Assembly (NCBI GenBank): GCA_027486405.1
Contig: JAIXPD010000095.1
Location: 1 to 64,000, forward strand
Length of the DNA: 64,000 nt
Source: Azospirillum sp.
Lineage (GTDB): Bacteria > Pseudomonadota > Alphaproteobacteria > Azospirillales > Azospirillaceae
Direction: 5' to 3'
Shown here in pieces: positions 26,265-47,853 of the stretch. The first letter of the stretch is position 1. Every line of letters starts with the position of its first letter. The position numbers were made by a program, and so were the translations under genes. The notes beneath the pieces were generated by a model. That model did no database searches and was not told the DNA's origin. It worked only from the letters and a program-made list of their open reading frames with translations.

Positions 26265-27131
26265 TCACATCTCGCTTGTTTTCACGCCGTCGTTGCGTTC
26301 CGTCCATCCGGCGGCGCGCACGGCGGCGTTGTAACGTCGGCTGACCGGAACGCGGCGGCCGTCGGTCAACACCAGCGTCAAGCGTCCGTCGGCGCTGCGC
26401 TCCACCCCCGCCACCGCGCGGCCCGCCACCCAGTGGGAGCGGTGGACCTGCATTCCCTCCACCCCGGTCAATTCGCCGATGGCGTCGCGCAGCCGCAGCA
26501 AAATCAAATCGCTGCCCTGGTCGGTGTGAACCCGGACATAGTGATCCTCCATCTCCAGGGCGAGAAGATTGCGACCCAGCCGGGGCGGGATGCGGTCCAG
26601 GAACGGGGGCGCGCCGGGTTCGGGGGCGGGTGTCGCCATTGGCTTCGGCACCGGGGCGGCGTCTGGTTCCACCGCATCGGGGATCGCTGCGTGGGCAGTC
26701 GGCGGCGGGGCCGCGTCGATCACGCCGTGGCGGCGCAGCTCCAGCCAGATCGGCGGGGCGGCGACCAGCAGGGTGACGACCAGCACATAGCCGTACAGCG
26801 TCAACAGCCCGCCCAGCCCCTGCGGGCCGCCGTTCCGCCACGTCTGTTCGATGACGGCGACCACGCCGGTCTGCACGACGCTGACCGTCAGCAGCCCCGC
26901 CGCCAGCATCCAGCGCCAGGAGCGGGTCAGGTCGGTGGTCAGCCGCTTGGCCAGCCAGACGACCAGATCGAATTCCAGCGTGCCGACCAGCAGCAACCCG
27001 CCCCAATAGGCCAACCGCCCGGCAAAGCTGAGATCCTGAAAGGTGCCGAACGGCCCCAGCACCGCCAGCGCCGCGACGCTGATGGCCAGAACCGGCGCGC
27101 GGCGGACCAGATGGGCGCGCAGCGCGGTCAT
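26265..27131 (-). CDS. Membrane-anchored LytTR DNA-binding regulator
   Basis: A 288-residue protein with four membrane helices (about 12-140), a Pro/Ala linker, and a C-terminal LytTR domain (about 190-280, with DHYVRVHTDQGSDLILLRLR and GMQVHRSHWVA). LytTR domains bind imperfect direct repeats. Membrane-bound forms without a receiver domain are often controlled by a small inhibitory partner, and none is seen next to it. The ATG at 27131 is preferred; an earlier in-frame ATG at 27251 would add 40 residues of another hydrophobic segment. Confidence 0.85.
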   Translation of the reverse strand: MTALRAHLVRRAPVLAISVAALAVLGPFGTFQDLSFAGRLAYWGGLLLVGTLEFDLVVWLAKRLTTDLTRSWRWMLAAGLLTVSVVQTGVVAVIEQTWRNGGPQGLGGLLTLYGYVLVVTLLVAAPPIWLELRRHGVIDAAPPPTAHAAIPDAVEPDAAPVPKPMATPAPEPGAPPFLDRIPPRLGRNLLALEMEDHYVRVHTDQGSDLILLRLRDAIGELTGVEGMQVHRSHWVAGRAVAGVERSADGRLTLVLTDGRRVPVSRRYNAAVRAAGWTERNDGVKTSEM

Positions 27132-27280
27132 CGTGTCGGTCCCCGCGCGGGCGTGGGCGTGAACGGGCGGGGCGACGACGGGCAGGCAGGACACCGCAAG
27201 ATGGACCGTCTCGAAACAGGGGCGACCGATGCGGGAGAGTCGCGCAGCCATCGGCACGGTCAAGCGGAAACGCGCGGGCG

Positions 27281-27961
27281 TCAGTCCTGATAGGGGCAGG
27301 AGGCGAGAAAATCGGACAGGCGGCGGCCGGGCGTGTCCTCGAACCCGCGCTCCAGCGCCTGCACCGCGTCCATGCGGTCGATGCGGAAATTGCGGAACTC
27401 CTGCCGCAGCTCGCACCAGGCGGCCAGCGTCCAGGTCCGGCCCCAGAAAAACAGGCCCAGCGGATGGGCGGCGCGGGCCGAAGCCGCCCCATCCTCCCGC
27501 CGGTAATCGAACAGCAGGACCCGGCGGTCGTTGATCGCGGCGCGCAGCAGGTCCATCCGCTCGCGCAGGGCGGGCGGGAAGAAATCGGGGGCGAACAGGC
27601 GGCTGTCGGCCAACTCCCGCCGCCGCGCCTCCGGGACCACGGCCTCGACCTTGTCGAGCACGCGGGCGGCGGCGGCGGCCAGCGCGCCGCCGGTCCAGGC
27701 GCGGGCCAACCGCGCCCCGACGACCAGCGCCTCCACCTCGTCGCGGGTGAACATCAGCGGCGGCAGGTCGTAGCCGTCGCGCAACAGATAGCCGACCCCG
27801 GCCTCGCCCTCCACCGGCACGCCGGAGGCGGCGAGGTCGCGGATGTCGCGGTAGATGGTGCGCTCCGACACCTCCAAGCGCCGCGCCAACTCGCCCGCCG
27901 TCATCAACCGCCCCTTGCGGAGCAGTTGCACGATGTCGAACAGGCGGTCGGCGCGGCGCAT
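27281..27961 (-). CDS. HTH-WYL transcriptional regulator (YafY type)
   Basis: A 226-residue regulator. An HTH_11 winged helix (about 1-60: AGELARRLEVSERTIYRDIR) is followed by a WYL-type sensing domain (about 135-200), although the W-Y-L triplet itself is altered (TWTLAAWCELRQEFRNFRIDRM retains the R-x-F-R-x-x-R core). Such regulators respond to nucleic-acid or small-molecule ligands. The gene lies 20 bases after a VOC-family gene on the same strand, a common pairing, and probably controls it. Confidence 0.88.
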   Translation of the reverse strand: MRRADRLFDIVQLLRKGRLMTAGELARRLEVSERTIYRDIRDLAASGVPVEGEAGVGYLLRDGYDLPPLMFTRDEVEALVVGARLARAWTGGALAAAAARVLDKVEAVVPEARRRELADSRLFAPDFFPPALRERMDLLRAAINDRRVLLFDYRREDGAASARAAHPLGLFFWGRTWTLAAWCELRQEFRNFRIDRMDAVQALERGFEDTPGRRLSDFLASCPYQD

Positions 27962-34174: not shown

Positions 34175-35368
34175 TCAGATCTTGCGCGTCAGCAGCAGCG
34201 CGGTCAGATCGTCGTCAATCGGGCCGGTGGCCCGCAGATCGGCCAGCAGCGCGGAAAGGAAGGCCTCGCCCTCCCGGTCGCGGTGACGGGCGACCAGCGC
34301 AGCCAGACCGGTTTCGTCCAGCACGTCGCTGCCGACCGGAATTTCGATGGCGGCGTCGGAATACAGGAACAGACGCCCGCCCGGCGGCAGCGGCAGGCTG
34401 CGGTTGTCGTATTGGGCGGACGACAGCAGCCCCAGCGGCAGGCCGCTGCCATCGCCCAGTTGCGGGGCGTCGTCGCCCGGTGCCCACACCATCGGCGCGG
34501 TGGCGGCGGCGGAGGCGTAATGGAACACCCCCTCCATCGGGTCGATCACCCCCGCCAGCATGGTGGCGAACTGGCCATAGGGCAGCAGCGTGCACAGCCG
34601 TTTGTTGACGGTGGCCAGGAAGCGGGCCGGTTCGCCGCTGACAGCGGCCAATTGCTGGCACATCGCGTGCAAGCGGAAGGTGTTGAGCGCCGCGCCGACG
34701 CCATGGCCGGAAAAATCGACCAGATACACCGCCAGCCGCCCATCGGGCAGCCGCCGTTTGCCCCAGAAATCGCCCCCCAGCTCCGACGATGGGGCGAAAT
34801 GCGCGTTGATGGCGATTCCCAACGCCTCTTCGGTGTTGAGAAGGCGGGTCGGGGATGGCAGCAGCCGTTCCTGCATGCTGCGGGCGAGCGCCAACTCGCT
34901 TTGCGCCCGGTTGTGATAGGTCTCCAGATCGCGCAGCAGCGCGCGTTTTTTCAGATGGATGCGGACGCGGGCCAGCAGTTCGCCGCTGTTGATCGGCTTG
35001 GCGACGTAATCGGTGGCCCCGACCGAAAAGGCGCGGGCGCGGTCCTCCGGCCGGTTCAGGCTGGATTGGATCAGGACGGGCAGCGACTTCCAACGCGGAT
35101 CGGCGCGCAGGTGCCGGCACATCTCGAACCCGTCCATGCGCGGCATCATCAGGTCCAGCAGGATCAGATCGGGTTGGAAGCGGTCCAACCGGGCCAGGGC
35201 GTCGCCGCCATCCTCGGCCTGTTCGACCTGATGGAAGCCGCCGCGTTCCAGCAGGGCAAGCAGCAGGTTGCGGTTCACCCGGTTGTCGTCCACCACCAGG
35301 ATGCGGGCGTGTTCCAGCCCGGCGGACGCCTTGGCAAGCGGGGAAGGGGCTGGCGCTGGGGTGGTCAC
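34175..35368 (-). CDS. REC-PP2C (RsbU/SpoIIE-type) phosphatase, apparently active
   Basis: A 397-residue response regulator. The receiver (about 20-140) has the acidic pair VVDD, phospho-acceptor Asp in LILLDLMMPRMDG, and Lys in DYVAKPI. A helical linker leads to a PP2C/SpoIIE domain (about 185-397) with the metal-site motifs SELGGDFW, VDFSGHGVGAA, LFLYSDAAIE and DDDLTALLL, all aspartates present. It should dephosphorylate an anti-anti-sigma protein when its receiver is phosphorylated. The GTG at 35368 overlaps the stop of the upstream paralog (GTGA). It is the last gene of the operon, followed by the terminator. Confidence 0.9.
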   Translation of the reverse strand: MTTPAPAPSPLAKASAGLEHARILVVDDNRVNRNLLLALLERGGFHQVEQAEDGGDALARLDRFQPDLILLDLMMPRMDGFEMCRHLRADPRWKSLPVLIQSSLNRPEDRARAFSVGATDYVAKPINSGELLARVRIHLKKRALLRDLETYHNRAQSELALARSMQERLLPSPTRLLNTEEALGIAINAHFAPSSELGGDFWGKRRLPDGRLAVYLVDFSGHGVGAALNTFRLHAMCQQLAAVSGEPARFLATVNKRLCTLLPYGQFATMLAGVIDPMEGVFHYASAAATAPMVWAPGDDAPQLGDGSGLPLGLLSSAQYDNRSLPLPPGGRLFLYSDAAIEIPVGSDVLDETGLAALVARHRDREGEAFLSALLADLRATGPIDDDLTALLLTRKI

Positions 35369-36573
35369 GATCCGCTCCGTTCGATCCAAACCAGCGTGTG
35401 GTCGTCGCCGCTGGCGCGGCCCAGGGCGGCGCCCAGGCTGTTGACCACGCTGGCAAAGCCCGCTTCCCCGCCGCCTTCGGCCATGGCGCGCCCGATCATC
35501 CAGCCCAGCCCGATGCCCGTCCCGCCCTCGTCCAACGATTGCAGCACCGCCACCGAATAGAGCGTCAGCACCGATCCGGCGGGCAGCGGCAGCGTTTCGC
35601 TGCGGTAACGCGCGCCAACATCCATCCCGATGGCCATCCCGCCCGCCTGCCCATAGACCGGCGCTTGCCCATCCGGGGGCAGCAGCAGGGGCGGGGCCGA
35701 ATCGGCGGCGGCGTAGGTGAAACGGTCCCGTTCGCCGTCGATCACGCCATAGATGACGGTGGCGTGCTGCCCATCCTCCAGCAGGTCGGCGGCCTGTTCG
35801 TTCAGCGCGTTCAGCATCGCCGCCGGATCCAGGCCATGGTCGGCGGTCAGTTCGTGCAGCAGGGTGTGCAGGCGAAAGGCGTTCATCGCCGCCGACACGC
35901 CTTGCCCCGACATGTTCAGCAGAAAGATCCCGAGTTGGCCGTCGTCCAGCGGCAACACCCCCCACAGATCCCCGCCCAGATTGGCTGAAATCTCGGTGTG
36001 GGCGCGCAGCACCACCCCGGCCAGCGACCCCAGCGTGTTGCACAGGGTGGGGGAGGGCAACAGATGCTCGTGCATGGATCGGGCGATGGCCAGTTCGCCT
36101 TCCACCCGCGCCCGGTAGCTTTGCAAACGGCGGATCAGCAGGCGGCTTTCCAGATGGATGCGCACCCGGGCCACCAACTCCGTCCGGTCGAGCGGCTTGG
36201 ACACCAGATCGGTGGTTCCAGCGACGAAGGCGCGGTTGCGGTCCTCACCGGAGGTCAGCGAGGTTTGGACCAGGATCGGCAGATCGGCGGTGTCCGGATC
36301 GGCGCGCAGGCGGCGGCACACCTCGAACCCGTCGATGCCCGGCATCATGATGTCGAGGATGACCAGATCGGGTTGCAGCGCCGCGACCCGATCCAACGCC
36401 TCCTGCCCATCGCGGGCGTAATGCAGATTGTGGAATCCGGCCTCGCTCAGCATCGCGCCGATCAGGGTGCGGTTGAGATGGGTGTCGTCCACCACCAGGA
36501 TCGGGCATTCGGGCAGGCCGAGACAGACCTCCGCGTCGGCGGGGTGTCCCGGTTCCGGGGACAGCGGCGTCAC
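35365..36573 (-). CDS. REC-PP2C paralog with a degenerate phosphatase site
   Basis: A 402-residue paralog of the next gene. The receiver is intact (VVDD, LVILDIMMPGIDG, LVSKPLD). In the PP2C domain GGDLW is kept. However, the D-x-SGHG motif reads LLNMSGQGVSAA (Asp to Asn, His to Gln), and the YSDG-type motif reads LYSVAVLQ (Asp to Val). The final SGDDHTLVWI is kept. Loss of two metal-binding aspartates predicts a weak or dead phosphatase, perhaps a phosphorylation-controlled decoy or scaffold. The GTG at 36573 overlaps the ATPase stop by four bases. Confidence 0.87.
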   Translation of the reverse strand: MTPLSPEPGHPADAEVCLGLPECPILVVDDTHLNRTLIGAMLSEAGFHNLHYARDGQEALDRVAALQPDLVILDIMMPGIDGFEVCRRLRADPDTADLPILVQTSLTSGEDRNRAFVAGTTDLVSKPLDRTELVARVRIHLESRLLIRRLQSYRARVEGELAIARSMHEHLLPSPTLCNTLGSLAGVVLRAHTEISANLGGDLWGVLPLDDGQLGIFLLNMSGQGVSAAMNAFRLHTLLHELTADHGLDPAAMLNALNEQAADLLEDGQHATVIYGVIDGERDRFTYAAADSAPPLLLPPDGQAPVYGQAGGMAIGMDVGARYRSETLPLPAGSVLTLYSVAVLQSLDEGGTGIGLGWMIGRAMAEGGGEAGFASVVNSLGAALGRASGDDHTLVWIERSGS

Positions 36574-37325
36574 AGGGAAAACCTCATGCGGATGCGGCGG
36601 CCGCCGTCCCGCAGTTCCACCGAATCCGCCACGGTGGCGATCAAATCCAGCCCACGGCCCGACGCGCCGTGGCAATCCGTCCGGGTCGGTTGGAAACCGC
36701 CGCCTTCGTCGGCCACCTCAACCGCCAGGGCCGACGGCTCCAGCGTGACCGCCACCTCCAGCCGCCGTTGCGCCAGCGCCGGGTTCGCCATCTGGCGGAC
36801 CAGATCGCGGGAGAAGCGCTCCAGTTCGGCGGCGCTCAACTCCTTCATGCCCGCGACCTCCAGATTGCCATGCACCAGGGCGTTGCTGATCGCCTCGTGC
36901 AGGGCCAATTCCAGATCCTCGCGCCGGTCGGGCGGCAGCGGATGGCGGGCGGCCAGCGCGGTCAGCACGCGCCCGGCCAGATGCAGGTCGTTGGCGGTTT
37001 CGGTGGTCAGATTGATGTAGAGATCGACCGCCCCGGCCCGTTCGGTCTGCGCCGCCAGCAGGGGTTGGGCGTCGGAATCGGTCTTGGGTTCGATCCAGGC
37101 GGCCACCGGCGGCAGCCACGCGGCGCTGTCCTCCGCCCCTTGCGGGCCGTCCAGCAGGGCAAGGGTCGAGCCGGGCCGCTTCCGCCCGTTCCCCGTGTCG
37201 TTCGGTTGGCCGCATCCCGGCGGCAACCCCAGCCACGCCGCGCACCGGGCCAGGCGCTCGTCATCGATCGCCAGACCGCGCAGGGCGGTGAAGCGGGTTC
37301 GTGGGGAAGGCGTCCGGCGGGCCAT
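36570..37325 (-). CDS. RsbW/SpoIIAB-like serine kinase (HATPase_c_2)
   Basis: A 251-residue protein with a GHKL ATPase domain at ~120-251: N box ELALHEAISNALVHGN, G1 DEGGGFQP, G2 GRGLDLI. The first ~115 residues are an unassigned extension. Partner-switching kinases phosphorylate a STAS antagonist and sequester a target such as a sigma factor. The STAS gene lies seven bases upstream, and two PP2C genes follow, so the three module parts are contiguous. The target is not encoded here. Starts with ATG at 37325. Confidence 0.87.
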   Translation of the reverse strand: MARRTPSPRTRFTALRGLAIDDERLARCAAWLGLPPGCGQPNDTGNGRKRPGSTLALLDGPQGAEDSAAWLPPVAAWIEPKTDSDAQPLLAAQTERAGAVDLYINLTTETANDLHLAGRVLTALAARHPLPPDRREDLELALHEAISNALVHGNLEVAGMKELSAAELERFSRDLVRQMANPALAQRRLEVAVTLEPSALAVEVADEGGGFQPTRTDCHGASGRGLDLIATVADSVELRDGGRRIRMRFSL

Positions 37326-37331
37326 CCGGCC

Positions 37332-37637
37332 TCAATCCTCGATGGGGATGAGCTTGCCGATCTGCGCCACGGTCAACACCCGCTTGACCTGCCCGACCGC
37401 GCCACGCAGCACCAGGGTTTTGTCGGTGGCGACGATTTCCTCCCGCGCGATCAACAGCATGCCGATCCCCGCCGAATCAACGAACTCCAGCGACGACAAA
37501 TCCAGAATTTGCCGCTGACCTTTGTTCAGTTTCATCTCGCCAATCAGCGCCCGCAGCTTGGCGTGGTCGTTGAAGGTCAGACGACCGCGCAGGCGAATGG
37601 TGTCCTCGCGGTCGCGTTGTTCGCTCGCGTATTCCAT
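37332..37637 (-). CDS. STAS-domain anti-anti-sigma-like protein
   Basis: A 101-residue SpoIIAA/RsbV-type protein. QILDLSSLEFVDSAGIGMLL carries the phosphorylatable serine (S55 in VDSAG), and the family's later helix reads LVLRGAVGQVKRVLTVAQIGKL. It is the expected substrate of the adjacent kinase and PP2C proteins. The ATG at 37637 with GGGGGC upstream is preferred over a TTG 15 bases earlier. It is separated from the soluble MCP-like gene by 49 bases. Confidence 0.92.
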   Translation of the reverse strand: MEYASEQRDREDTIRLRGRLTFNDHAKLRALIGEMKLNKGQRQILDLSSLEFVDSAGIGMLLIAREEIVATDKTLVLRGAVGQVKRVLTVAQIGKLIPIED

Positions 37638-37686
37638 GGCTATGCCCCCCAAAAAACCAGTGTCTCAATCGAAGAACAGCAACGCA

Positions 37687-38805
37687 TCAGAACAGTTCGA
37701 TGTCTCCACCGGCACTGTCGCTATGCGATGCATCCACGTCAAGCACACCATTTTCATCCAGCGCGGTCCCTTCCAACAGAAGTTTTCGCACAAAACGCCC
37801 GCGCATTTCACTCAGCGTGAAGCGGCCCAGCAGGGTGTTCAGCCACTCCTGCGGCTCGCGCGCGCCGACGTCGGGCGGGACCTGGGCGCGGATTTGGCTT
37901 TCCAGATCGCCCAACCCGACGCACAGCACGGCGAGGCTGTCGTTGATCGCCTCAATCCGCTGTTTGGTCAGATCCTGGAACTGCATGCCGGTGATGACGC
38001 GCCCGATGGTGGCGGACATGTCCGCCGACACGGTGGCGGCGGTTTCCAGCACGCTTTGGAAGTGGTTGGTCTGCTCCACCAGGCTGACCATGGTCTTGTC
38101 GACGCGTTCCTTGGCCAGCATCTGGGGCGACATGTCGGTGTTGGCGATCTCGCGCAGGATCTCGTGGCCGTGGCGCACGCCCTTGACCACCGCCGTCACC
38201 TTGCTGCGCATCCGTTCGGCCAGCGCGGCGGTGGAGCTGGACAGGTGGCGCACCTCCTGGGCGACGACGGCGAAGGTGCGCCCGGCCTCCCCGGCGCGGC
38301 TGGCTTCGATGGTGGCGTTCAGCGCCAGGAAATTGGTCTGCCGGTTGATGCTGTCGATGTCGCCGATGGATTTCTCCAGCTCCACCACGTCCTTTTGCAC
38401 GTCGTCGAGCAGATAGACCATGCTCATGGCGTGGCGGGACAGGACCACGATGTTGCCGACCATGTCCGAAATCATGTCCTGCATGCCGACCACCAGATGA
38501 TCGACTGGCACGCGTTCGTCGTCGATGGTGACGGATCCGGCGATGGCGATGATGTCGGCGACCCGCTGGGACTGCTCCAGCGCCTTTTCCGCCAGGATGC
38601 GGAAGCGGGTGGACAGATCCAGCGTGGCGTCTTCCACATGCTGGGAGGTGCGCGCCAACTCGCTTTGCACCACACCCAGGGTGCGGCGCTGGACGTCGGC
38701 GAAGCCCATCCAGGTGGACAGCAGGTCGTGGGACACCGCCACCGTGTTGGCGGCGTCGGCGGTTCCGGCGGCGGGCGGCTGGATCGCGGCACCGTCAAAC
38801 GACAT
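37687..38805 (-). CDS. Soluble MCP-like signalling protein
   Basis: A 372-residue cytoplasmic protein without membrane helices, Cache, PAS or HAMP. The middle region (about 135-230) matches the tip of the chemoreceptor hairpin: [20 protein letters not shown] and [15 protein letters not shown]. Flanking helices are shorter than in true receptors, and the C-terminal ~80 residues ([19 protein letters not shown]...) are unrelated to known domains. Such proteins may link CheA/CheW to a cytoplasmic cue or act as an adaptor. Here it sits exactly between the Che genes and the partner-switch genes. The ATG at 38805 follows GAGGAG. Confidence 0.82.
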
Positions 38806-38851
38806 ATCGACACTCCTCACTCTGTCCACCCCATCCGGCCAACGGTCCGCA

Positions 38852-39916
38852 TCAGGAACCGCGCGGGCGGTCGCCGATGGCGTCGTAGGCGCGCATCATT
38901 TCGGCGGGAATTTGCGCCAAAGGCAACTCCACCGCCACCGCCCCGCCTTCGCGGGCGGCGCGCGGCATTCCATACACCACACAGCTCGATTCCTGTTCGC
39001 CAATGGTGTGGGCACCGGCGTCGCGCATCGCCTTCAGGCCGATGGCCCCGTCGCGGCCCATGCCCGACAGGATGACGCCGACGGCGTTCGGCCCGGCGGC
39101 CTTGGCGACGGAGCCGAACAGCACATCCACCGATGGCCGGTGGCCGCTGACCGCCGGGCTGTCCTGGATGTGGCAGACCAGCCCGAGAGCGTCGCGGGCG
39201 ATGGCGAGATGGCGGTCGCCCGGCGCGATGAAGACCACGCCCTGGGCCAGCCGCGCGCCATGGCTGGCGACCTGGACGCTGGGAGCGGACATCCGGTCGA
39301 GCCGGGCGGCGAAGCTGGGGACGTAGCTCGGCCCCATATGCTGGGTGATGACGATGGGCGGGCAATCGGCGGGCAGGACGGCCAGCACGTCGCGGATGCG
39401 TTCGACCCCGCCGGTGGAGGCGCCAATGGCGATCAGGCGGTTGCCCGTCTCGGCCCGGCGCGGCCTGGGCAAGGGCGTGGCGGCGGCGGCGGGGCGGCGC
39501 ATCGACAGGCGTGCGGTGGCGGCGACCATGATCTTGGACACCAGTTCGCGCCCGGTCTGTTCGAACCCCTTGCCGTCGGCGCTGCCCGGCTTGGCCAGGC
39601 AATCGACCGCCCCCAGCTCCAGCGCGCGGATGGCGGCGTCGGACCCTTCCTGCGTCAGGGTGGAGATCATGATGACCGGTGTCGGCCGCAGGGTCATGAT
39701 CTTTTCCAGAAAGGACAGGCCGTCCATCTTCGGCATTTCGACGTCCAGCGTGATGACGTCGGGGTTGGTCGCCTTGATGATTTCGCGCGCTTCGAACGGG
39801 TCGCGGGCCACGCCCACCACCTCGATTCCGGCTTCGCGCGAGAGCATGTCCTTCAGCATCTCGCGCATCAGCGCGCTGTCATCGACGATCACGACGCGGA
39901 TGGTTCGGCTCATCAT
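38852..39916 (-). CDS. cheB: CheB methylesterase/glutamine deamidase
   Basis: A 354-residue two-domain response regulator. The receiver has [12 protein letters not shown], and its phospho-Asp lies in [12 protein letters not shown]. The C-terminal methylesterase has the catalytic Ser in IGASTGG, His in ITQHMGPSY, and Asp in SGMGRDGA. It demethylates receptor glutamates when phosphorylated by CheA. It overlaps the cheD stop (TGATG); ATG 39913 is an equally good start. Confidence 0.96.
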
Positions 39917-40551
39917 CAACCCTCGTCGCTGTCGGTGGCGATGAACAGCTCGACCGCGCCGTCGATCAGGCCGCGCCGCAGGTTGGACATGAAATGGCGC
40001 TCCTGGGTGATGGTGTCCACAACCATGGTGGGATTCAGCATACGGCGCAGCGCCCGCCCGGCGTGGGGAAAATACTGGATGCGGCGCGCCGACGCACCGC
40101 CCAGATCCTGACCGGCCAGGATCAGCCCCTCGGCCCGCACATAATCCAGGGCAAAGCGGCTGTTCATGCCGCCGATGTCATAGCTGCTGTCGATGACGCG
40201 GGCACCGCCGAACAGCTTGACCTGCAAGCGCCGCCGCTCGGCCCCCGCCCCCAACAGCGCGTTGATGAGGCGCTCCATCGCCACCGAGCCATAGCGCGCC
40301 GCCTCCCCGTTGCCGCTCAGCTCCGATTCCGGGACCTCGGGCAGCAGGAAATGGTTCATGCCGCCGATGCCGCGCACCGGGTCGTGGATGCAGGCCGACA
40401 CACAGGACCCCAAGGTGGTGGACATCATCACGTCCATCCGGTCGCTGATGGCGTGGTCGCCCAGAAACACCTTGATCGTCTCCATCCCCGACGCCCGGCT
40501 GACCATGCGACCGACGCGCCGGTTGGGGGGGGCGACGGCGTCGCGCGTCAT
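39916..40551 (-). CDS. cheD: CheD chemoreceptor glutamine deamidase
   Basis: A 211-residue protein with the CheD catalytic Cys in TTLGSCVSACIHDP and His in GGMNHFLLPE, and the conserved VKLFGGARVI and GLILAGQDLGG-type segments. It deamidates receptor glutamines and in other bacteria interacts with CheC or phospho-CheY; no CheC is present here. It starts with ATG at 40551, overlapping the cheR stop by four bases. The C-terminal ~25 residues (LRRGLIDGAVELFIATDSD) extend past the common core. Confidence 0.95.
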   Translation of the reverse strand: MTRDAVAPPNRRVGRMVSRASGMETIKVFLGDHAISDRMDVMMSTTLGSCVSACIHDPVRGIGGMNHFLLPEVPESELSGNGEAARYGSVAMERLINALLGAGAERRRLQVKLFGGARVIDSSYDIGGMNSRFALDYVRAEGLILAGQDLGGASARRIQYFPHAGRALRRMLNPTMVVDTITQERHFMSNLRRGLIDGAVELFIATDSDEG

Positions 40552-41480
40552 GGTCCCACCCGCTGGTAGATGGTGGGGCCGACCTGCCGGAACCGCTCCG
40601 ACACGCCATACAGGCTTTCCGAATGCCCCAGGAACAGATAACCGCCGGTGCCGATCATGCGGGCGAAATTCTCGATCACCTGCATCCGTCCGGGCCGGTC
40701 GAAATAGATCAGCACGTTGCGGCAGAAAATGGCGTCGAACGGGCCGGACATCGGCCAATGTTCCAGAAGATTGAGCGGCTTGACGGTGATCAGGCGCTTC
40801 AGATCATCGGTCATGGCGATCGCCGGTTCGCCGTTCAGCGTCGTGGGTCGGGTGAAGCGGGACCGGATCGCCGCCGGGATGCCCGACGCGCCGTCGGCGC
40901 TGTACACCCCCCGTCGGGCGGTGTCGACCATGTGGGTGTCGATGTCGGTGGCCAGGATGCGGGCGTCCCAGCGCCGCAGTTCCGGCCCCAGGCTGGCAAC
41001 CAGCACCATGGCGATGCTGTAGGGTTCCGGCCCCGAGGAGCAGCCCGCCGACCACAGGCGCAGCCGGGGCTTGGGATCGCGGGCGCGCCGGTCGCGCAGT
41101 TCCGGCAGCACCGTTTGTTCCAGAAAGGTGAAGTGGTGGGCCTCGCGGTAAAAGCTGGTCAGGTTGGTGGTCAGGGCGTTGACGAGGTAGCCGATTTCGT
41201 GCGCCCCGGCCTCGCTCTGCAACAGGGCGCAATAGGCGTCGAAATCGGGCAGACGCAGGTCGCGCAGGCGGCGCGCCAGCCGGGCATAGACCATCTCCAC
41301 CTTGTGCGCCGCCAGCGCGATCCCGGCCAACTGGTGCAGCAGCCGGGCGATCAGATCGAAATGGTGCCGTTCAAAGCGGAACTCGCGGGTGTTCCGGAAA
41401 TCCGCCCCCGCGCCGGTCGGGCGGGACCGTCGGTCGGCGTCGGGGCGGGGATCATCGGACGGAGCCTGCGGGCCGGTCAT
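40548..41480 (-). CDS. cheR: CheR chemoreceptor methyltransferase
   Basis: A 310-residue SAM-dependent glutamate O-methyltransferase. It has an N-terminal helical domain (about 35-100), then the family blocks NLTSFYREAHHF, LWSAGCSSGPEPYSIAM (SAM site), ILATDIDTHMVDTARRGVY and FDAIFCRNVLIYFD. The leading ~30 residues are extra and charged. The ATG at 41480 is chosen over an adjacent TTG. It methylates the operon's own receptor and perhaps others. Confidence 0.96.
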   Translation of the reverse strand: MTGPQAPSDDPRPDADRRSRPTGAGADFRNTREFRFERHHFDLIARLLHQLAGIALAAHKVEMVYARLARRLRDLRLPDFDAYCALLQSEAGAHEIGYLVNALTTNLTSFYREAHHFTFLEQTVLPELRDRRARDPKPRLRLWSAGCSSGPEPYSIAMVLVASLGPELRRWDARILATDIDTHMVDTARRGVYSADGASGIPAAIRSRFTRPTTLNGEPAIAMTDDLKRLITVKPLNLLEHWPMSGPFDAIFCRNVLIYFDRPGRMQVIENFARMIGTGGYLFLGHSESLYGVSERFRQVGPTIYQRVGP

Positions 41481-41504
41481 CAAGGGGCGATCTCGGCAAA
41501 AGCG

Positions 41505-44135
41505 TCAGACGCGGGCGCGGCGGCGGTCGCCCCGATCCCCGGAGAAGCGATCCCCCGAGGCACGATCCCCCGAGGCACGATCCCCAGAGGCACGATCCAG
41601 GGTGAAGGAGGTCATTTGCTCGCGCAATTGGTCGGCCTGCTCCTCCAACGACCGGGCGGCGGCGGTGCTTTCCTCCACCAGGGCGGCGTTCTTCTGCGTC
41701 ATCTCGTCCATCTGGGCGACGGCGATGTTGACCTCGTCCAGGCCGCTGGCCTGTTCGCTGGTGGCGCGGGCGATTTCCGCGACCAGATCGGCGACGCGGC
41801 CGATGCCGGTGACGATCTCGGTCAGGGCACCGCCCGCCGCGCGCACCAGATCGACGCCCTCGCGCACCTGCGCGCCGCTGTCCAGGATCAGCGCCTTGAT
41901 CTCCTTCGACGCCTGGGCGGAGCGCTGGGCCAGTTGCCGGACCTCCTGCGCCACCACGGCGAAGCCGCGCCCGGCATCGCCCGCGCGCGCCGCCTCCACC
42001 GCCGCGTTCAGCGCCAGCAGATTGGTTTGGAACGCGATCTCGTCGATCACCCCGATGATGTCGGAGATCTTCTGCGAAGACTGCTCGATCCGCCGCATCG
42101 CCTCCACCGCGTCGCCCGCCACCTGACCGCCTCGCGCCGCCACACTGCGGGCGTCGGTGGCGAAACGGTTCACCTGCTGGGCGTTCTCGGCGTTGGAGCG
42201 CACGGTCGCGGCCAATTGTTCCATGCTGGCGGCGGTTTCCTCCAGGCTGCTGGCCTGCTGTTCGGTGCGCTCCGACAGGTCCAGGCTGCCCGCCGCCACC
42301 TCGCGGCTGGCGGTGGCGATGGAGGACGCCGCGCTGTCGATGCGCCGCACGGTGTCGGACAGTTGGACGACGGTGTTGTTGAAATCGTTCTTCAGGCGCT
42401 GGAACACGCCCTCGTAATCCCGTTCGATCCGGCGGGTCAGGTCGCCGTGCGACAGGGTTTCGAGCGCGGTGGCCAGCTCCTCGGTGACGGCGGAGACGTT
42501 CTCCGACAGCCGGTTGATGCCCTCGCTGACCAGCCGGAAGAAACCGACCTTGTCGGTCAGATCGATGCGGTGGGTGAAATCACCACGCACGGCGCGGTCC
42601 ACCATGCTGCTGATCTCGGCCTCGATCGCCAGTTCTTCGGTGCGGTCGCGCCATTCGATGACGGTCCCCAGCTTTTCCCCCTGGCGGCTGACCACCGGGT
42701 TGGCGATGACGTCGAAGGTGCGCCCACCCGCCTTGGCCGACCCGCGATAGGTCTGGGTCAACGCCCCCAACAGACGGCGCTGGTGGCTGGGGTCGCGGTG
42801 GAAGATGTCGTAATTCCGGCCCAGCAGCGCTTTGCTGTCGAAGTTGGGCAGGGCCTTTTTCAGATCGGCCTCGGCGTGGCGGAACATGCCCATGATGGAG
42901 TCGTTGGCGTAGAGGATTTGGCCATCGGCGTCCGCCATCATGATGTTGGCCGACACCCGGTCCAGGGCGATGCGCAGCCGGGCCGCCTCCACCGCCTCGT
43001 CCTTGAAGGCGGCGACGGCGCGGGCCATGTCGCCCATTTCGTCGCCCGCCTGGGTGTGGGGAACGGCGACGTTCAGCTTGCCCGCCAGCAGGTCGGTCAT
43101 CACGGCCTTGATCCCGGTGATCGGGCCGATGATCGACCGGCCGATCCGGCTGGCGGCGAAAACCCCGATCAGCAGCGACAGCAGACCCAGTCCGATCGAC
43201 AGGCGGGTGTTGAAGGTCGCCTCCTGCTCGGCGGCGATCTCGTCGGCCACCTGTTCGGCCCGCAGCGCGGTGATGATGATGCCGATCGCGTCGTTGATGT
43301 TGCCCACCAGCTTGCCCACCTCGGCGGTGCGCTGGGTGATGGTGGCGTTGAGCGCCAGCGCGTCCTTGAAGGCGGCGCGGTAGTCGGTGGAACGCGCCTC
43401 CACGTCGCGCAGGATCGCGCTGACGGTGGGGGAGGCGCGGAAGGCGGCGGTCAGCTCGGTCAGATGCTCGGCCAGCTCCTTGCTCTGTCCCTCCACCTGG
43501 GCGATGGCGGTGGGATCCTTCAACCCCAAGGCGCGGTTGGCGGCAAAGCGGACGGTGATCCAGTGCTTGATCGCCTCCTGCGCGTCGATGGCGGCGGCGC
43601 TGTTGTCCTTGCTCGCCGTCACCACCTCTTCCAGTTGGGCGGTGACGCGCTCGCCGTTCGGATCCATCCGGTCGCGCAGGATGCGGTCGAACCGCTCGCG
43701 CAGTTCGCGGACCTGCTCGAACTGCTCGTGATAGCCAGCGTGCAGCCGCGACAGCTCGGCAAAGGCGGCGGCCTGGGAGGAGGCGGTCAGGATCGCCTGA
43801 CGCTCGCTCATCGCCTTGTCGAAGCTGGTGCGCAGAGCGCGCTGACGCTCCAGCGAGCCGATGTCGCCGGTGAAGATGTAATCCCGCCCCTGGATGCGTT
43901 GGTTGGCCAGCCGGTTTTCCAGATCCTTGGCGAACAGGGCCAGATCGCCCGATTTCAGCGCGTGGTCCAACCGGTCGTTCAGGTTGTGCTGGCCCAGAGA
44001 GCCAATCCCCACTTGCGCGACGATCAAGGCCAGCAGAAAGCCGAAGACCAGCCACAGCCGTTGCGCGATGCCCATGCGGCGAACGGGCGCGCCGTTGGGT
44101 GTGGCGGCGGGCGCGGTGGTGGCGTGCGTGGTCAT
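41505..44135 (-). CDS. Methyl-accepting chemotaxis protein with helical sensor, PAS and double HAMP
   Basis: An 876-residue receptor. It has a membrane helix at ~27-48, a long periplasmic all-helical (HBM/4HB-like) region to ~325, a second helix ([17 protein letters not shown]), HAMP, a cytoplasmic PAS domain (about 430-545, [16 protein letters not shown]), two further HAMP-like segments ([26 protein letters not shown]), and a signalling hairpin with tip [20 protein letters not shown]. The C-terminus ends in (RASGD)n and a basic tail rather than an NWETF-type CheR tether. The ATG at 44135 after CTGGAG is preferred to the ATG at 44156. It is the dedicated receptor of this operon. Confidence 0.93.
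41533..41592. repeat. 15-bp tandem repeat inside the MCP C-terminus
   Basis: Four 15-bp units of the type CGATCCCCCGAGGCA lie at 41533, 41548, 41563 and 41578, the middle two identical. They encode the repeated pentapeptide [10 protein letters not shown] on the minus strand. Confidence 0.92.
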
Positions 44136-44238
44136 GGCGGTTGTCTCCAGCGTCATGTGCGTTGGCCGGTGGGGCGGGGTGGGGCCGATGGTGTGATCGC
44201 CGATGGGGGCCGGGGGCGGTCCCCCGGTCGGGTGGCGT

Positions 44239-44796
44239 CTAGGAGGTCGCGGCGCTGCCGGCAATTGCCCGGGTGTCGGCCGGGTCCTGGTGGTCGCCGT
44301 GTTCGTTCGCGAACAGCTTGTCGACGTTCAGCAGCGTCACCATGCGGTTCTCGGCGGTGTAGAGGCCGCTGAGATACTCGGCGTCGATCAGACCGCTGTC
44401 CACGTCGGGCGGCGGTTTGATGGCGTCCGGGCCGATGGCCAGAATGTCGGAAATCGCGTCCACCAGAATGCCCCGCGTGCGCTCGCCAACCTGGATCACC
44501 ACCACCACATGGCGTTTCGTCACCTCGGTCTTGCCCCCGCCGAAACGGGCGCGCAGATCAAAGATCGGAATGATGATGCCGCGCAGGTTGATGACCCCCC
44601 GGACATAGTCGGGAAGATTGGGCAGTCGGCTTTCCGGTGTCCAGCCGCGTATTTCCCTTACGGCCAGGATGTTGACCCCGTATTCCTCGGTGCCGACGGT
44701 GAAGGACACGTATTGATCCTCCGTGCCGTTCAGGGACAGGGCGTCGGACCGGCTGCCTCCGACGGTGGCGAGTGCCATGGAACTGCTCATGCTCAT
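44239..44796 (-). CDS. cheW: CheW coupling protein
   Basis: A 185-residue single-domain Che[22 protein letters not shown], then [28 protein letters not shown] and [11 protein letters not shown]. It couples receptors to CheA in the array. It starts with ATG at 44796 (GAGG upstream), ten bases after cheA. Both termini have ~25 extra residues compared with E. coli CheW. Confidence 0.96.
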
Positions 44797-44805
44797 CGCT
44801 GGGCC

Positions 44806-47130
44806 TCAGACCGTTTGGCGTTGACGCGGGGAGGGGGAGGGACCGGCCAGCGCCGGGGTGGGGGCTGGACGGGCGCGGTCGCTGTCGCCGGTGTGGCGGC
44901 TCATCTCGCGCAGGCCCGCGACGTCCAGGATCAGGGCGACCCGCCCGTCGCCCAGGATGGTGGCGGCGGCCACGCCATCCAGGCGGCGGAAGTTCGATTC
45001 CAGGCTCTTGATGACGACCTGCTGTTGGCCCAGCACCTCGTCCACCACCAAGCCCAGCCGCGATCCGTCCTCCGTCTCCACCAGCACGACCAGCCCACGG
45101 GTGGCGTCGTCCACCGCCTTGGGGATGCCGAACAGGCGGTGGAGGTAGACCAGCCGCACATATTCGCCGCGCGCCATCATCACGTCGCATTTGTTGACCA
45201 GCCCGTGCAGATCGACGGGTTTTGGCCGCAGGCTTTCCACGATGTTGGTCAGCGGCAGGACGAACCGTTCCTCTCCCACCGAAATGACCATGCCGTCCAG
45301 CACCGCCAGCGTCAGCGGCAGCGACAAAACGAAGCGTGAGCCTTCGCCCGGCGTGGAATAGACGCCGATGCGCCCACCCAACGCCGAGATGTTGCGGCGC
45401 ACCACATCCATGCCGACGCCGCGTCCGGACAGGTTGGACACCTGATCGGCGGTGGAGAAGCCCGGCAGGAAGATCAAATGATCGATCTCCTCGTCGGTCA
45501 GGCTGGCACCGGGTTGGACCAGCCCCTTTTCGATGGCCTTGGACAGCACCTTGGCCCGGTTGATGCCGCGCCCGTCGTCCGTCACCTCGATCACGATGCG
45601 GCCGGAGCGGTGCTGCGCGGACAGATGGACGGTTCCGGCGCGCGGCTTGCCGATGCGCTCGCGCTCCTCCGGCCCTTCCAGCCCATGGTCGATGGAGTTG
45701 CGGATCATGTGGGTCAGCGGATCGACGAGGTTTTCCACCACCGTCTTGTCCACCTCGGTGTTTTCGCCGGAGGTGGCGAGCAGCACCTCCTTGCCGGTCA
45801 GCGCGGCGCATTCGCGCACCAGGCGCGGCATCCGCGAAAAGACACTCGACACCGGTTGCGCGCGAATCGACATCACGCTTTCGCGCAGCTCGCGGGTGTG
45901 CTGGGCCAACTGCTCCAACCCCTCCTGCAACTCCTGGAACTGGCCGGGGGGCAGGTCGCGCAGATGCTCGGCGATCATCGCCTGGGTGATGACCATTTCG
46001 CCGACCATGTTCACCAGCCGGTCGATCTTGTCGAGATCGACGCGGATGGTGTGGGTGGTCAGGCCGCCGTGATCCCCACCGCCGTTGCCGCCGCGCGGCT
46101 TGGTCGGGCCGTCCGTCTTCGCGCCGTCGCCCTTGCCGGTGGTGGCCTGGGCGGCGGCGGCGGGCGCGGTGGTGGCCGGTGGAGTGGTTGTTTGGGTTGC
46201 GGGTGGGGCCGGAACGGCCGCCGGTTCGCTGCGGGCGGGCGGCGGCGCGGCGGCGCTGGCGGCGGGGGCCGTCGGCTCCACCACGGCGGGCAGCGGGGCG
46301 TCGGCGCTGATTTGGAGGTCGCAATCGTCGGCGACGAATTCGAACACGTCGTCGATCCGGTCGCGCCCGACCGACGCGTCGGCGGTCAGGGTGATGGTCC
46401 AGGACAGATGCAGCAGTTCGGCGTCCAGATCGGCCAGCGCGGGCAGATCGTCCAGATGACAGTGGATGTTCACCTCGCCCAGACGGCGCAGGGCGCGCAG
46501 CATGTAGGCCGGTTCGTTGCCCGACAGCAGCAGATCGTTCTTGGGACGGAAACGGATGGTCCAGCGCACGCGGTCGGCGGTGGCGCTGCCCGAACCGGTG
46601 CCGGACGGGTCGTCGTCGGCGCGGGCGGCGTTGATCGCGGCCAGGGCGTCGCCGAAGATCCCGGCCTCGTCATCCTCATCGTCCGGCGTCGCGCTGGCGG
46701 GGGGGGCCGTCGATTCGGCCACCGGCTGTGGCGGGCTGTTGCGATTCGCCGACAGGGCGTGGCGCAGGGCGGCGACGGTGTCGTCGGTCAGGCCGGGTGG
46801 CGGGTCGGTTTCGTCCCCAGCGTAGCCAAGCAACTGGCCCAACAGGTCGTTGGCGCGGATCAGCGTGTCGATCAGGTCGGTGGTGACGGGGATCGCGCCG
46901 TTGCGCAGCTCGTCCATCACCGTTTCGAATTCGTGGGAGAAGGCGACCAGTTCGGAAAAGCCGAAGGCCCCGGCCCCGCCCTTGATCGAATGGACGGCGC
47001 GGAAGATCGCGTTCACCTCGTCCATGTCGACGTCGCCGGGGGACAGCCGCAGCAACCCGGCCTCGGCGACCGCCATCAGTTCGGCGCTCTCGTCGAAATA
47101 GGTCTGCTTGAACCGGCTCAGATCGTCCAC
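44806..47130 (-). CDS. cheA: CheA histidine kinase
   Basis: A 774-residue kinase. The P1 HPt domain has H47 in IFRAVHSIKGGAGAFGF. A linker and P2-like region (about 150-285) is followed by an Ala/Pro/Thr linker. The P3 dimerisation helices (LDKIDRLVNMVGEMVITQAM), the P4 ATPase (DPLTHMIRNSIDHGLE, DDGRGIN, GRGVGMDVV) and the C-terminal CheW-like P5 complete it. It receives array signals and should phosphorylate CheY, CheB and possibly the receiver domains of the two PP2C proteins encoded downstream in the same operon. The stop lies ten bases from the cheW start. Confidence 0.97.
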   Translation of the reverse strand: MDDLSRFKQTYFDESAELMAVAEAGLLRLSPGDVDMDEVNAIFRAVHSIKGGAGAFGFSELVAFSHEFETVMDELRNGAIPVTTDLIDTLIRANDLLGQLLGYAGDETDPPPGLTDDTVAALRHALSANRNSPPQPVAESTAPPASATPDDEDDEAGIFGDALAAINAARADDDPSGTGSGSATADRVRWTIRFRPKNDLLLSGNEPAYMLRALRRLGEVNIHCHLDDLPALADLDAELLHLSWTITLTADASVGRDRIDDVFEFVADDCDLQISADAPLPAVVEPTAPAASAAAPPPARSEPAAVPAPPATQTTTPPATTAPAAAAQATTGKGDGAKTDGPTKPRGGNGGGDHGGLTTHTIRVDLDKIDRLVNMVGEMVITQAMIAEHLRDLPPGQFQELQEGLEQLAQHTRELRESVMSIRAQPVSSVFSRMPRLVRECAALTGKEVLLATSGENTEVDKTVVENLVDPLTHMIRNSIDHGLEGPEERERIGKPRAGTVHLSAQHRSGRIVIEVTDDGRGINRAKVLSKAIEKGLVQPGASLTDEEIDHLIFLPGFSTADQVSNLSGRGVGMDVVRRNISALGGRIGVYSTPGEGSRFVLSLPLTLAVLDGMVISVGEERFVLPLTNIVESLRPKPVDLHGLVNKCDVMMARGEYVRLVYLHRLFGIPKAVDDATRGLVVLVETEDGSRLGLVVDEVLGQQQVVIKSLESNFRRLDGVAAATILGDGRVALILDVAGLREMSRHTGDSDRARPAPTPALAGPSPSPRQRQTV

Positions 47131-47179
47131 GATCGCTCTCCTTGCCCGTGCGCGGTCTTATGGTCGCCGACCCGGCGGG

Positions 47180-47545
47180 TCAACCGCAGACCTTCTGCAC
47201 GACGGAAATCAGTTTGTCCGGGTTGAACGGCTTCACGATCCAGCCGGTCGCCCCGGCGGCCCGCCCCTCCGCCTTTTTCGAATCGTCGGCTTCGGTGGTC
47301 AGCATCAGGATGGGCAGGCTGCGATGGGCCGGGATGGCGCGCAGCTTGCGGATCAGGGTCAGGCCGTCCATCACCGGCATGTTCAGGTCGGTGATGACCA
47401 GATCGACCTTGGACGCGGCGATGGCGGTCATCGCCGCCTGTCCGTCGGCGGCCTCCACCACCTCGTACCCGGCCCCGCGCAGGGTGAAGGACACCATGTC
47501 GCGCATGGTGCGGGAATCATCGACGGTCAAAACCTTCTTTTTCAC
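47180..47545 (-). CDS. cheY: CheY-type single-domain response regulator
   Basis: A 121-residue receiver: KKKVLTVDDSRTMRDMVSFT, phospho-Asp in LVITDLNMPVMDG, Thr in ILMLTTEAD, Lys in GWIVKPFNPDKL. The GTG at 47545, with GGAG six bases ahead and a four-base overlap with the preceding STAS stop, is preferred; an ATG at 47557 would add four residues. It is the likely direct output or phosphate sink of this CheA. Confidence 0.95.
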   Translation of the reverse strand: MKKKVLTVDDSRTMRDMVSFTLRGAGYEVVEAADGQAAMTAIAASKVDLVITDLNMPVMDGLTLIRKLRAIPAHRSLPILMLTTEADDSKKAEGRAAGATGWIVKPFNPDKLISVVQKVCG

Positions 47546-47853
47546 GCGCGGCTCCATTGCTTCAGCCAATCCTGAAGACCCAAATCCTCGCAGGCCTCGG
47601 TCAGGCTGTCCGACGGGGTGGCGATGACAAAGGCGGCCCCGCGCGCGGCGCTGTCGCGGGCCGCCACCACCAGGGTCTGCACGGTGGCGGCGCTGACGCG
47701 CTCCACCGCGTCGGCCTGCACCGTCACGTCGTTGGCGGCGGCGAAGGCGGCGCGCAGGCTGTCCAGCAGCGGTTGCGCCATCGGCAGATCCAGATCGCTG
47801 GGCAGGGTCAGGCGGACGCGTCCGGCCTCTTCGCTCCATTTGATCAGTGTCAT
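47542..47853 (-). CDS. STAS-domain protein, first gene of the che operon
   Basis: A 103-residue SpoIIAA-like protein (MTLIKWSEEAGRVRLTLPSD...). The phosphosite region reads ADAVERVSAATVQTLVVAAR, so a serine is at the usual place (VSAAT instead of DSSG), but the preceding Asp is missing. STAS proteins of this type precede cheY-cheA in several alphaproteobacterial clusters. It differs clearly from the canonical STAS at 37332 and may be a second, divergent antagonist. The start is ATG 47853 with AAGGGGAAACGGGG before it. Confidence 0.85.
   Translation of the reverse strand: MTLIKWSEEAGRVRLTLPSDLDLPMAQPLLDSLRAAFAAANDVTVQADAVERVSAATVQTLVVAARDSAARGAAFVIATPSDSLTEACEDLGLQDWLKQWSRA

Follow-up and report, generated by a model that had tools for sequence, protein, structure and literature searches.

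Gene content and boundaries of the operon

The window analysed here is a stretch of 64,000 nucleotides from Azospirillum sp. (assembly GCA_027486405.1, contig JAIXPD010000095.1), which is contig C81 of a 5.49-Mb genome (G000) with five cheA-like genes. On its minus strand, from position 47853 to 34175, lie 13 co-directional genes in the order STAS1, cheY, cheA, cheW, a gene for a methyl-accepting chemotaxis protein (MCP), cheR, cheD, cheB, a gene for a soluble MCP-like protein, STAS2, a gene for an RsbW-like kinase, and two genes for receiver-PP2C proteins that we call P1 and P2. Calculated from the coordinates, the successive distances are an overlap of 16 bp, gaps of 49, 9, 82 and 24 bp, overlaps of 4 and 1 bp, gaps of 46, 49 and 6 bp, and two further overlaps of 4 bp; the largest gap is therefore 82 bp, five junctions overlap, and the unit contains zero additional genes. 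Sequence inspection and folding revealed an intrinsic terminator 3′ of P2 (34125–34092), a hairpin of 9 G/C-rich pairs with a CGAA loop followed by TTTTT (−28.5 kcal/mol, z −6.2 against 200 shuffles), although a consensus terminator scan did not list it. At the 49-bp junction where the two halves meet, between the soluble receptor gene and STAS2, no terminator was found by the consensus scan or by eye. An earlier note on this DNA had described a 13-gene operon read in one direction and closed by a single terminator, and the coordinates, domain matches and hairpin uphold that description. The locus is probably the Che4 operon of Azospirillum extended by a partner-switching output branch, in which CheA4 would signal to the receivers of P1 and P2.

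In the chemosensory half, cheY (CheY4; 47180–47557) and cheW (44239–44796) were assigned by Pfam matches to Response_reg and CheW, and the membrane MCP (41505–44156), which resembles Tlp4a, by Pfam matches to HAMP, then HAMP_2, then the MCP signal domain. For CheA (CheA4, GTG start; 44806–47130), CheR (40548–41480), CheD (39916–40551) and CheB (38852–39916) the corresponding NCBIfam family was the best match in each case, with the curated cut-off passed by CheB alone. The H47-SIKG and kinase motifs of CheA are invariant in 10 aligned sequences. Beyond the operon terminator stands a convergent gene which we take to be rpsD.

By elimination and by gene content, this half is the Che4 (F7) system. 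The published systems of A. brasilense are Che1 (class F5), Che2 (F9, with cheC), Che3 (alternative cellular functions, ACF) and Che4 (F7, with cheD and two MCPs) (PMC8429497). The window locus holds a core of cheA, cheY, cheW, cheR and cheB together with cheD and two MCP genes in one cluster. Four cheA clusters are present in the A. brasilense genome (G030); the regions fetched around the three that are not orthologous to this locus gave no cheD match. We identify the locus as Che4 because it corresponds to the only cheD-bearing cluster and has two MCP genes; its F7 class follows the published classification (PMC8429497, PMC6759762) and gene content. Judged by the soluble receptor, its closest named relative is Azospirillum griseum (94% identity). 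CheA4, CheB4, CheR4, CheS, Tlp4a and Tlp4b are named among nine predicted Che4 proteins, and Che4 sets swimming reversals, with A. brasilense che4 mutants being null for chemotaxis (PMC8561660). The Che half is thus an experimentally tractable motility pathway, so that any output of the switch would run beside motility, not in its place. The option in the earlier note that the operon acts instead of motility is accordingly unlikely, and a locus that replaces motility was rejected as unsupported, Che4 having been published as a motility pathway (PMC8429497, PMC8561660).

STAS1 (47542–47853; Pfam STAS_2) is a CheS-like protein with a single STAS domain. CheS of Sinorhizobium meliloti, likewise a STAS-only protein, binds CheA (PMC12654446), and STAS1 matches it in its STAS domain and in its position directly upstream of cheY-cheA. 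In our alignment of STAS1 to STAS2, the position of the phosphorylated serine held T in 18, A in 15 and V in 2 of 35 rows, and Ser in none. STAS1 therefore looks like a CheS-type, CheA-binding accessory rather than a partner-switch substrate. A CheS-like gene is also present in five other regions of the class (L197–L201).

The soluble receptor Tlp4b (37687–38805; Pfam MCP signal domain) ends in ELF, a tail shared by nearly all full-length members of its family that were inspected. Its QFQDxxKQ motif (residues 275–282) is invariant in 32/32 aligned sequences, and the looser pattern FQDxxxQ occurs in 65/76 frames of the Tlp4b family versus 0/100 other MCP frames. This site resembles the CheZ active-site motif AxxFQ-DxxxQ (PMC7750401), but G replaces A. 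Pfam scans gave no match of Tlp4b to the CheZ family, and the window locus is absent among the CheZ matches listed; elsewhere in the genome, on contig C50, a CheZ with the full motif is present. In structure searches with a predicted model of Tlp4b (predicted local distance difference test, pLDDT, 74; predicted template modelling score, pTM, 0.36), chemoreceptors matched best and no CheZ was among the best 50 of 695 matches, a result of little weight for coiled coils. Because the CheZ model does not detect Tlp4b, we treat a CheZ-like function as a lead only.

The partner-switching half and its two receiver-PP2C proteins

STAS2 (37332–37637; Pfam STAS) resembles anti-sigma antagonists, and its DSAG phosphosite is present in 36/36 rows from the genus. 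The RsbW-like GHKL kinase (36570–37325; Pfam HATPase_c_2) has N-box and G-box residues that are invariant in 30/30 sequences, and its predicted model (pLDDT 88) matches the folds of RsbW, SpoIIAB and Leptospira LvrC; the LvrC match spans 278 Foldseek columns, but with a template modelling (TM) score of 0.48. Residues 10–107 of the kinase form a mostly well-modelled alpha/beta domain that is poorly conserved in sequence, and VIA-align matches cover mainly residues 100–251, not this N-terminal part. In the model it looks like a short alpha/beta domain with a receiver-like order.

Related modules occur elsewhere. A further STAS-RsbW-receiver-PP2C module is carried by contig C9 of the same genome (L074, L075), and the stretch inspected around it gave no match to cheA. 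The module is present twice, at 26914–27396 and 71567–72049 of 98962 bases, and because the copies stand in mirror positions the contig looks palindromic, which is probably an assembly artefact. In the A. brasilense group (L044, L048, L065–L067, L069–L072), genes for a paralogous kinase and receiver-PP2C protein are found some 2 kb past P2 and on the other strand, and two partner switches thus face each other.

P1 (35365–36573) and P2 (34175–35368) both start with GTG, both match the Pfam receiver and SpoIIE-type PP2C families, and are 44% identical over their length. Their receivers are intact: the two acidic D residues, the phospho-accepting D, the T/S and the K are kept in 36/36 P1 and 35/35 P2 rows from the genus. 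Their PP2C domains differ sharply. All of the PP2C residues checked in P2 are intact in 35/35 rows, whereas in P1 the Asp of the YSDG motif is kept in 0/35 scorable rows (36 rows, of which L073 is cut by its contig before the C-terminal sites) and is replaced by V, T, N, A, E or S. The His of SGHG survives in 2/36 P1 rows and the Asp of DxSG in 18/36. The metal ligands of SpoIIE are D628, D746 and D795 (PMC5468089), and the YSDG Asp was equated with D746 on the basis of its motif rather than of an alignment to SpoIIE. In a wider alignment, in which the P1 and P2 groups each hold one strain twice (L044, L095), the D746-equivalent Asp is found in 0/19 P1 and 19/19 P2 sequences, in 17/17 P2 proteins and paralogues from elsewhere in the class, and in 9/9 chosen phylum-wide rows (seven fused proteins, the alphaproteobacterial L196 and the separate PP2C protein of L184). 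That both proteins are working phosphatases was therefore rejected, P1 lacking a catalytic metal ligand in every scorable row; the earlier note had counted two PP2C phosphatases, and P2 is the only one of the pair that can be an active phosphatase.

P1 is not a decaying pseudogene either, an idea rejected on the evidence of purifying selection. Nonsynonymous to synonymous substitution ratios (dN/dS, NG86) for its PP2C domain were 0.10–0.35 in 14/14 pairs, compared with 0.03–0.30 in 13 pairs for the P2 domain; one pair comprises 130 codons, and the dS values include some that are low or approach saturation. The pattern of kept and lost residues marks P1 as a maintained, putative pseudophosphatase with an intact receiver. 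In a phylogenetic tree all P1 rows fall on one side of a branch (support 99/96), apart from every P2 row, and the P2 rows of P1-bearing loci form one group (99/93). The tree is rooted at its midpoint only and several of its branches are long, and we therefore suggest no more specific date for the duplication than that it would be old, going back at least to the ancestor of Azospirillum, Skermanella and Aerophototrophica.

The receiver is the only fully intact part of P1, and this would suit a different role in which P1, and perhaps P2, serve mainly as sinks for CheA4 phosphate that speed the termination of the CheY4 signal, with STAS2 and RsbW being secondary. Rhizobia are known to have receivers that act as phosphate sinks and a helper of the CheS type (PMC8429497, PMC12654446). 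A sink, however, would not need a conserved PP2C domain, yet purifying selection acts on the dead domain of P1 and the catalytic residues of P2 are intact in every row scored. We consider a sink improbable, and return to the reading in which the receivers of P1 and P2 gate a partner switch.

The gene-expression target of such a switch was sought among sigma factors. An RpoS-like sigma factor was not found in the genome, which is 94% complete. Sigma70_r3 had two matches only, a strong one in a 665-residue frame on contig C61 and a weak one in a 298-residue protein, which we read as RpoH; the other Sigma70_r2 matches in the genome have no Sigma70_r3. As no Sigma70_r3 protein was found besides these two, an RpoS target like that in Shewanella appears unlikely, with the reservation that 6% of the genome may be missing. 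The same result bears on the proposal that P1 is an RssB-like adaptor which, controlled by CheA and independently of STAS2, hands a protein over to a protease. The architecture of P1 equals that of Escherichia coli RssB, which consists of a receiver and a PP2C fold without active-site residues (PMC7226468). With no RpoS-like sigma factor found, however, and with P1 kept next to P2, STAS2 and RsbW in all complete genus loci, an adaptor of this kind would be very unlikely, and the partner-switching branch remains the reading that we develop below.

Conservation of the linkage and proposed control by CheA

The same gene order recurs in 34/34 complete Azospirillum loci (35 regions were fetched, one being cut by its contig), with the membrane MCP detected in 31/34 at the thresholds used and an orthologous RsbW-like kinase in 35/36 genus relatives. 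Among 41 named loci, of which 20 were laid out, 11 lie outside Azospirillum by name and content, and in 9 of these the STAS2-RsbW-P1-P2 set is present: they come from Skermanella, Aerophototrophica (where cheD has moved), and Rhodospirillales and Azospirillaceae metagenome-assembled genomes (MAGs). The remaining two are a locus cut by its contig and a MAG with che genes and the soluble receptor but without the switch; this MAG locus (L119, identical to L162) is counted in both the named and the class-wide sets. One locus labelled Magnetospirillum (L097) resembles the A. brasilense group in layout and in identity to the window, and its label is for that reason doubtful. Recurrence of the order in the genus and in other genera places the arrangement beyond chance.

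Across the class, the soluble receptor was matched at E 1e-30 or better in 22/289 genomes. These gave 25 places, 21 of which are covered by 20 fetched regions; the window locus, G036 (Azospirillum), G215 and one place in G046 make up the rest. Fourteen of the 20 regions combine che genes, the soluble receptor, STAS2 and one full-length receiver-PP2C protein, with the kinase detected in 11 of the 14; none of the 14 has a second full-length receiver-PP2C protein on the same strand. Receiver residues are retained in 14/14 class-wide phosphatase rows. The earlier note had asked whether this gene order co-occurs across genomes, and it does so in the whole set of complete genus loci, in Skermanella and in several MAGs; loss of the linkage in relatives, which it took as an argument against its idea, is not what we see, the class-wide loci retaining it with one phosphatase.

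Further afield, CheA was matched at E 1e-120 or better in 131/349 genomes of the phylum, and 20 regions (14 outside the class and 6 inside) were picked by hand, not randomly, from the high matches; L186, L191 and L193 are cut by contig ends. Outside the class, 7/14 of these regions end in STAS2 and a fused receiver-PP2C-kinase protein, a form that agrees with the che1 operon of Shewanella oneidensis and its CrsA and CrsR. Inside it, one of the six (L196) ends in STAS2, a receiver-PP2C protein and a kinase, and the other five, L197–L201, have neither the soluble receptor nor the switch. In two loci of the class, L177 and L178, the order of fusion is kinase-receiver-PP2C, opposite to that of CrsR. 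Fusions in both orders are therefore independent hints that kinase and phosphatase act together.

The linkage also bears on the view that the partner switch is a passenger module, its receivers being phosphorylated by another histidine kinase while Che4 serves chemotaxis only. A full role of Che4 in motility has been published (PMC8561660), and RbaY, RbaV and RbaW of Rhodobacter capsulatus are described, in the part of the account consulted, without a linked che operon (PMC3999984). The contig C9 module, whose inspected surroundings gave no cheA match, implies that such modules can work away from CheA. On the other hand, the linkage persists down to approximately 40–60% protein identity and across families, fused forms exist, the Shewanella counterpart is transcribed as a single unit (PMC9855816), and no extra gene has entered the 13-gene unit. 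A passenger module seems to us unlikely. Because the linkage is old and conserved, the receiver residues are intact and the unit holds no extra gene, control of the phosphatase by CheA would be the natural reading.

Several observations nonetheless weigh against a Che4 operon with a partner-switching branch. The 49-bp junction between the halves may contain an internal promoter, and another kinase of the genome may serve the receivers of P1 and P2. Accounts of A. brasilense Che4, in the parts consulted, give nine genes, with motility and metabolic phenotypes only (PMC8561660). One of the 36 genus relatives (G028) has a paralogue only in place of the orthologous kinase, the kinase was matched at 1e-3 in only 4/24 other genomes of the class, and the soluble receptor found no match at 1e-30 in two genomes of the same family but another genus (G210, G306). 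In 6/20 class-wide regions the set of che genes, STAS2 and phosphatase is missing (L162, L169, L173 with STAS2 only, L174, L175 with STAS2 and kinase without che genes, and L181). Finally, our alignment indicated that, of the seven fused CrsR-like proteins found beyond the class, five (L183, L184, L187, L189 and L190) have lost a key receiver residue, with their PP2C residues intact; control through the receiver is thus not universal in this kind of system. As the receivers are intact in 14/14 class-wide phosphatase rows and five of seven fused homologues have lost a residue, the alphaproteobacterial form would be the better candidate for direct control by CheA.

With these reservations, the Che4 partner switch could operate as follows. 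Receptors would act on CheA4, which would phosphorylate CheY4, CheB4 and, we infer, the receivers of P1 and P2. P2, as a receiver-gated phosphatase, would remove phosphate from STAS2 and the RsbW-like kinase would restore it, and the phosphorylation of STAS2 would then determine which protein, STAS2 or a different one, the kinase or a partner of STAS2 holds. P1 would most likely bind to STAS2, to P2 or to some other target, depending on phosphorylation and without hydrolysis, so that the CheA signal would set the relative weight of the live and the dead phosphatase. A slow output in gene expression or lifestyle would run parallel to the fast motility output. The locus itself supplies the gene content and order, their conservation, the residues kept and lost, the purifying selection and the likeness to che1-CrsR/CrsA; phosphotransfer, the direction of the switch, the role of P1 and the target are our proposals. 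The route from CheA through receiver-PP2C proteins to STAS that the earlier note had drawn is supported in its conserved linkage and intact receivers, but not where it takes both receiver-PP2C proteins as phosphatases, and STAS1 looks like an accessory of CheA rather than a substrate.

A more elaborate version is tentative: CheA4, the main chemotaxis kinase in this family of plant-associated bacteria, might drive expression through a live/dead receiver-PP2C pair that competes for, or jointly gates, STAS2, while the CheZ-like site of Tlp4b drains phosphate from CheY or from the receivers. If this is true, the motor and a comparator made of phosphatase and pseudophosphatase would both read the chemotaxis input.

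An operon that steers swimming may therefore also steer gene expression. In A. brasilense, CheA1 and CheA4 have been tied to protein levels and nitrogen metabolism in ways only partly understood (PMC8561660), and for CheA4 a partner switch in the che4 locus offers a concrete candidate for such a route. By pairing a live with a dead phosphatase the system would convert receiver phosphorylation into a ratio, which would be a novel device. The conserved layout of the Alphaproteobacteria, with its intact receivers, opens direct control by CheA to experiment in a harmless soil bacterium.

Comparison with known systems

P1 and P2 share their receiver-PP2C layout with RssB of E. coli and Pseudomonas aeruginosa, and the best match of P2 in the PDB is P. 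aeruginosa RssB (3EQ2, E 2.9e-53), which is also the best full-length match of P1. P1 agrees with RssB in combining an intact receiver with a PP2C fold, recognised by sequence match, that lacks active-site residues; unlike RssB, it stands in a che operon beside a candidate active paralogue, STAS2 and a kinase. RbaV-RbaW-RbaY of R. capsulatus is, like the system described here, an alphaproteobacterial partner switch with a receiver-PP2C protein, but neither che genes nor a pseudophosphatase are mentioned in the part of its description consulted (PMC3999984). HptB-HsbR-HsbA of P. aeruginosa has in common a receiver-PP2C-kinase protein and a STAS protein under phosphorelay control (PMC6482189); HsbR, however, is a fused protein and receives its phosphate from HptB rather than from a CheA of the same operon.

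By elimination and content, the locus is orthologous to A. brasilense Che4, with which it shares the F7 class, cheD and two MCPs, and its STAS1 fits the CheS of that system. Che4 was published as a system of nine genes, and the four partner-switch genes (STAS2, kinase, P1 and P2) go unmentioned in the parts of the published accounts consulted (PMC8429497, PMC8561660). A literature search of partial coverage yielded no description that we recognised of a partner switch in the Azospirillum che4 locus, and we make no claim that it is absent from print.

The earlier note knew of no described pathway with this set of genes, but a relative has been described in Shewanella oneidensis, where the ten genes of che1 (so_2117–so_2126), including those for CrsA and CrsR, form one transcription unit by reverse-transcription PCR (PMC9855816). 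Common to both are F7 che genes, two MCP genes, an anti-sigma antagonist and receiver-PP2C-kinase activity (PMC9855816, PMC6482189). Shewanella CrsR is one fused protein with RpoS as its target, whereas in Azospirillum the kinase and phosphatase are separate genes (with a 4-bp overlap), a dead P1 is added and the chemosensory half serves as the main pathway for motility. What is new here is the live/dead pair of P1 and P2, which we did not recognise in earlier descriptions; in its overall plan the locus is a variant of the che1-CrsR/CrsA kind.

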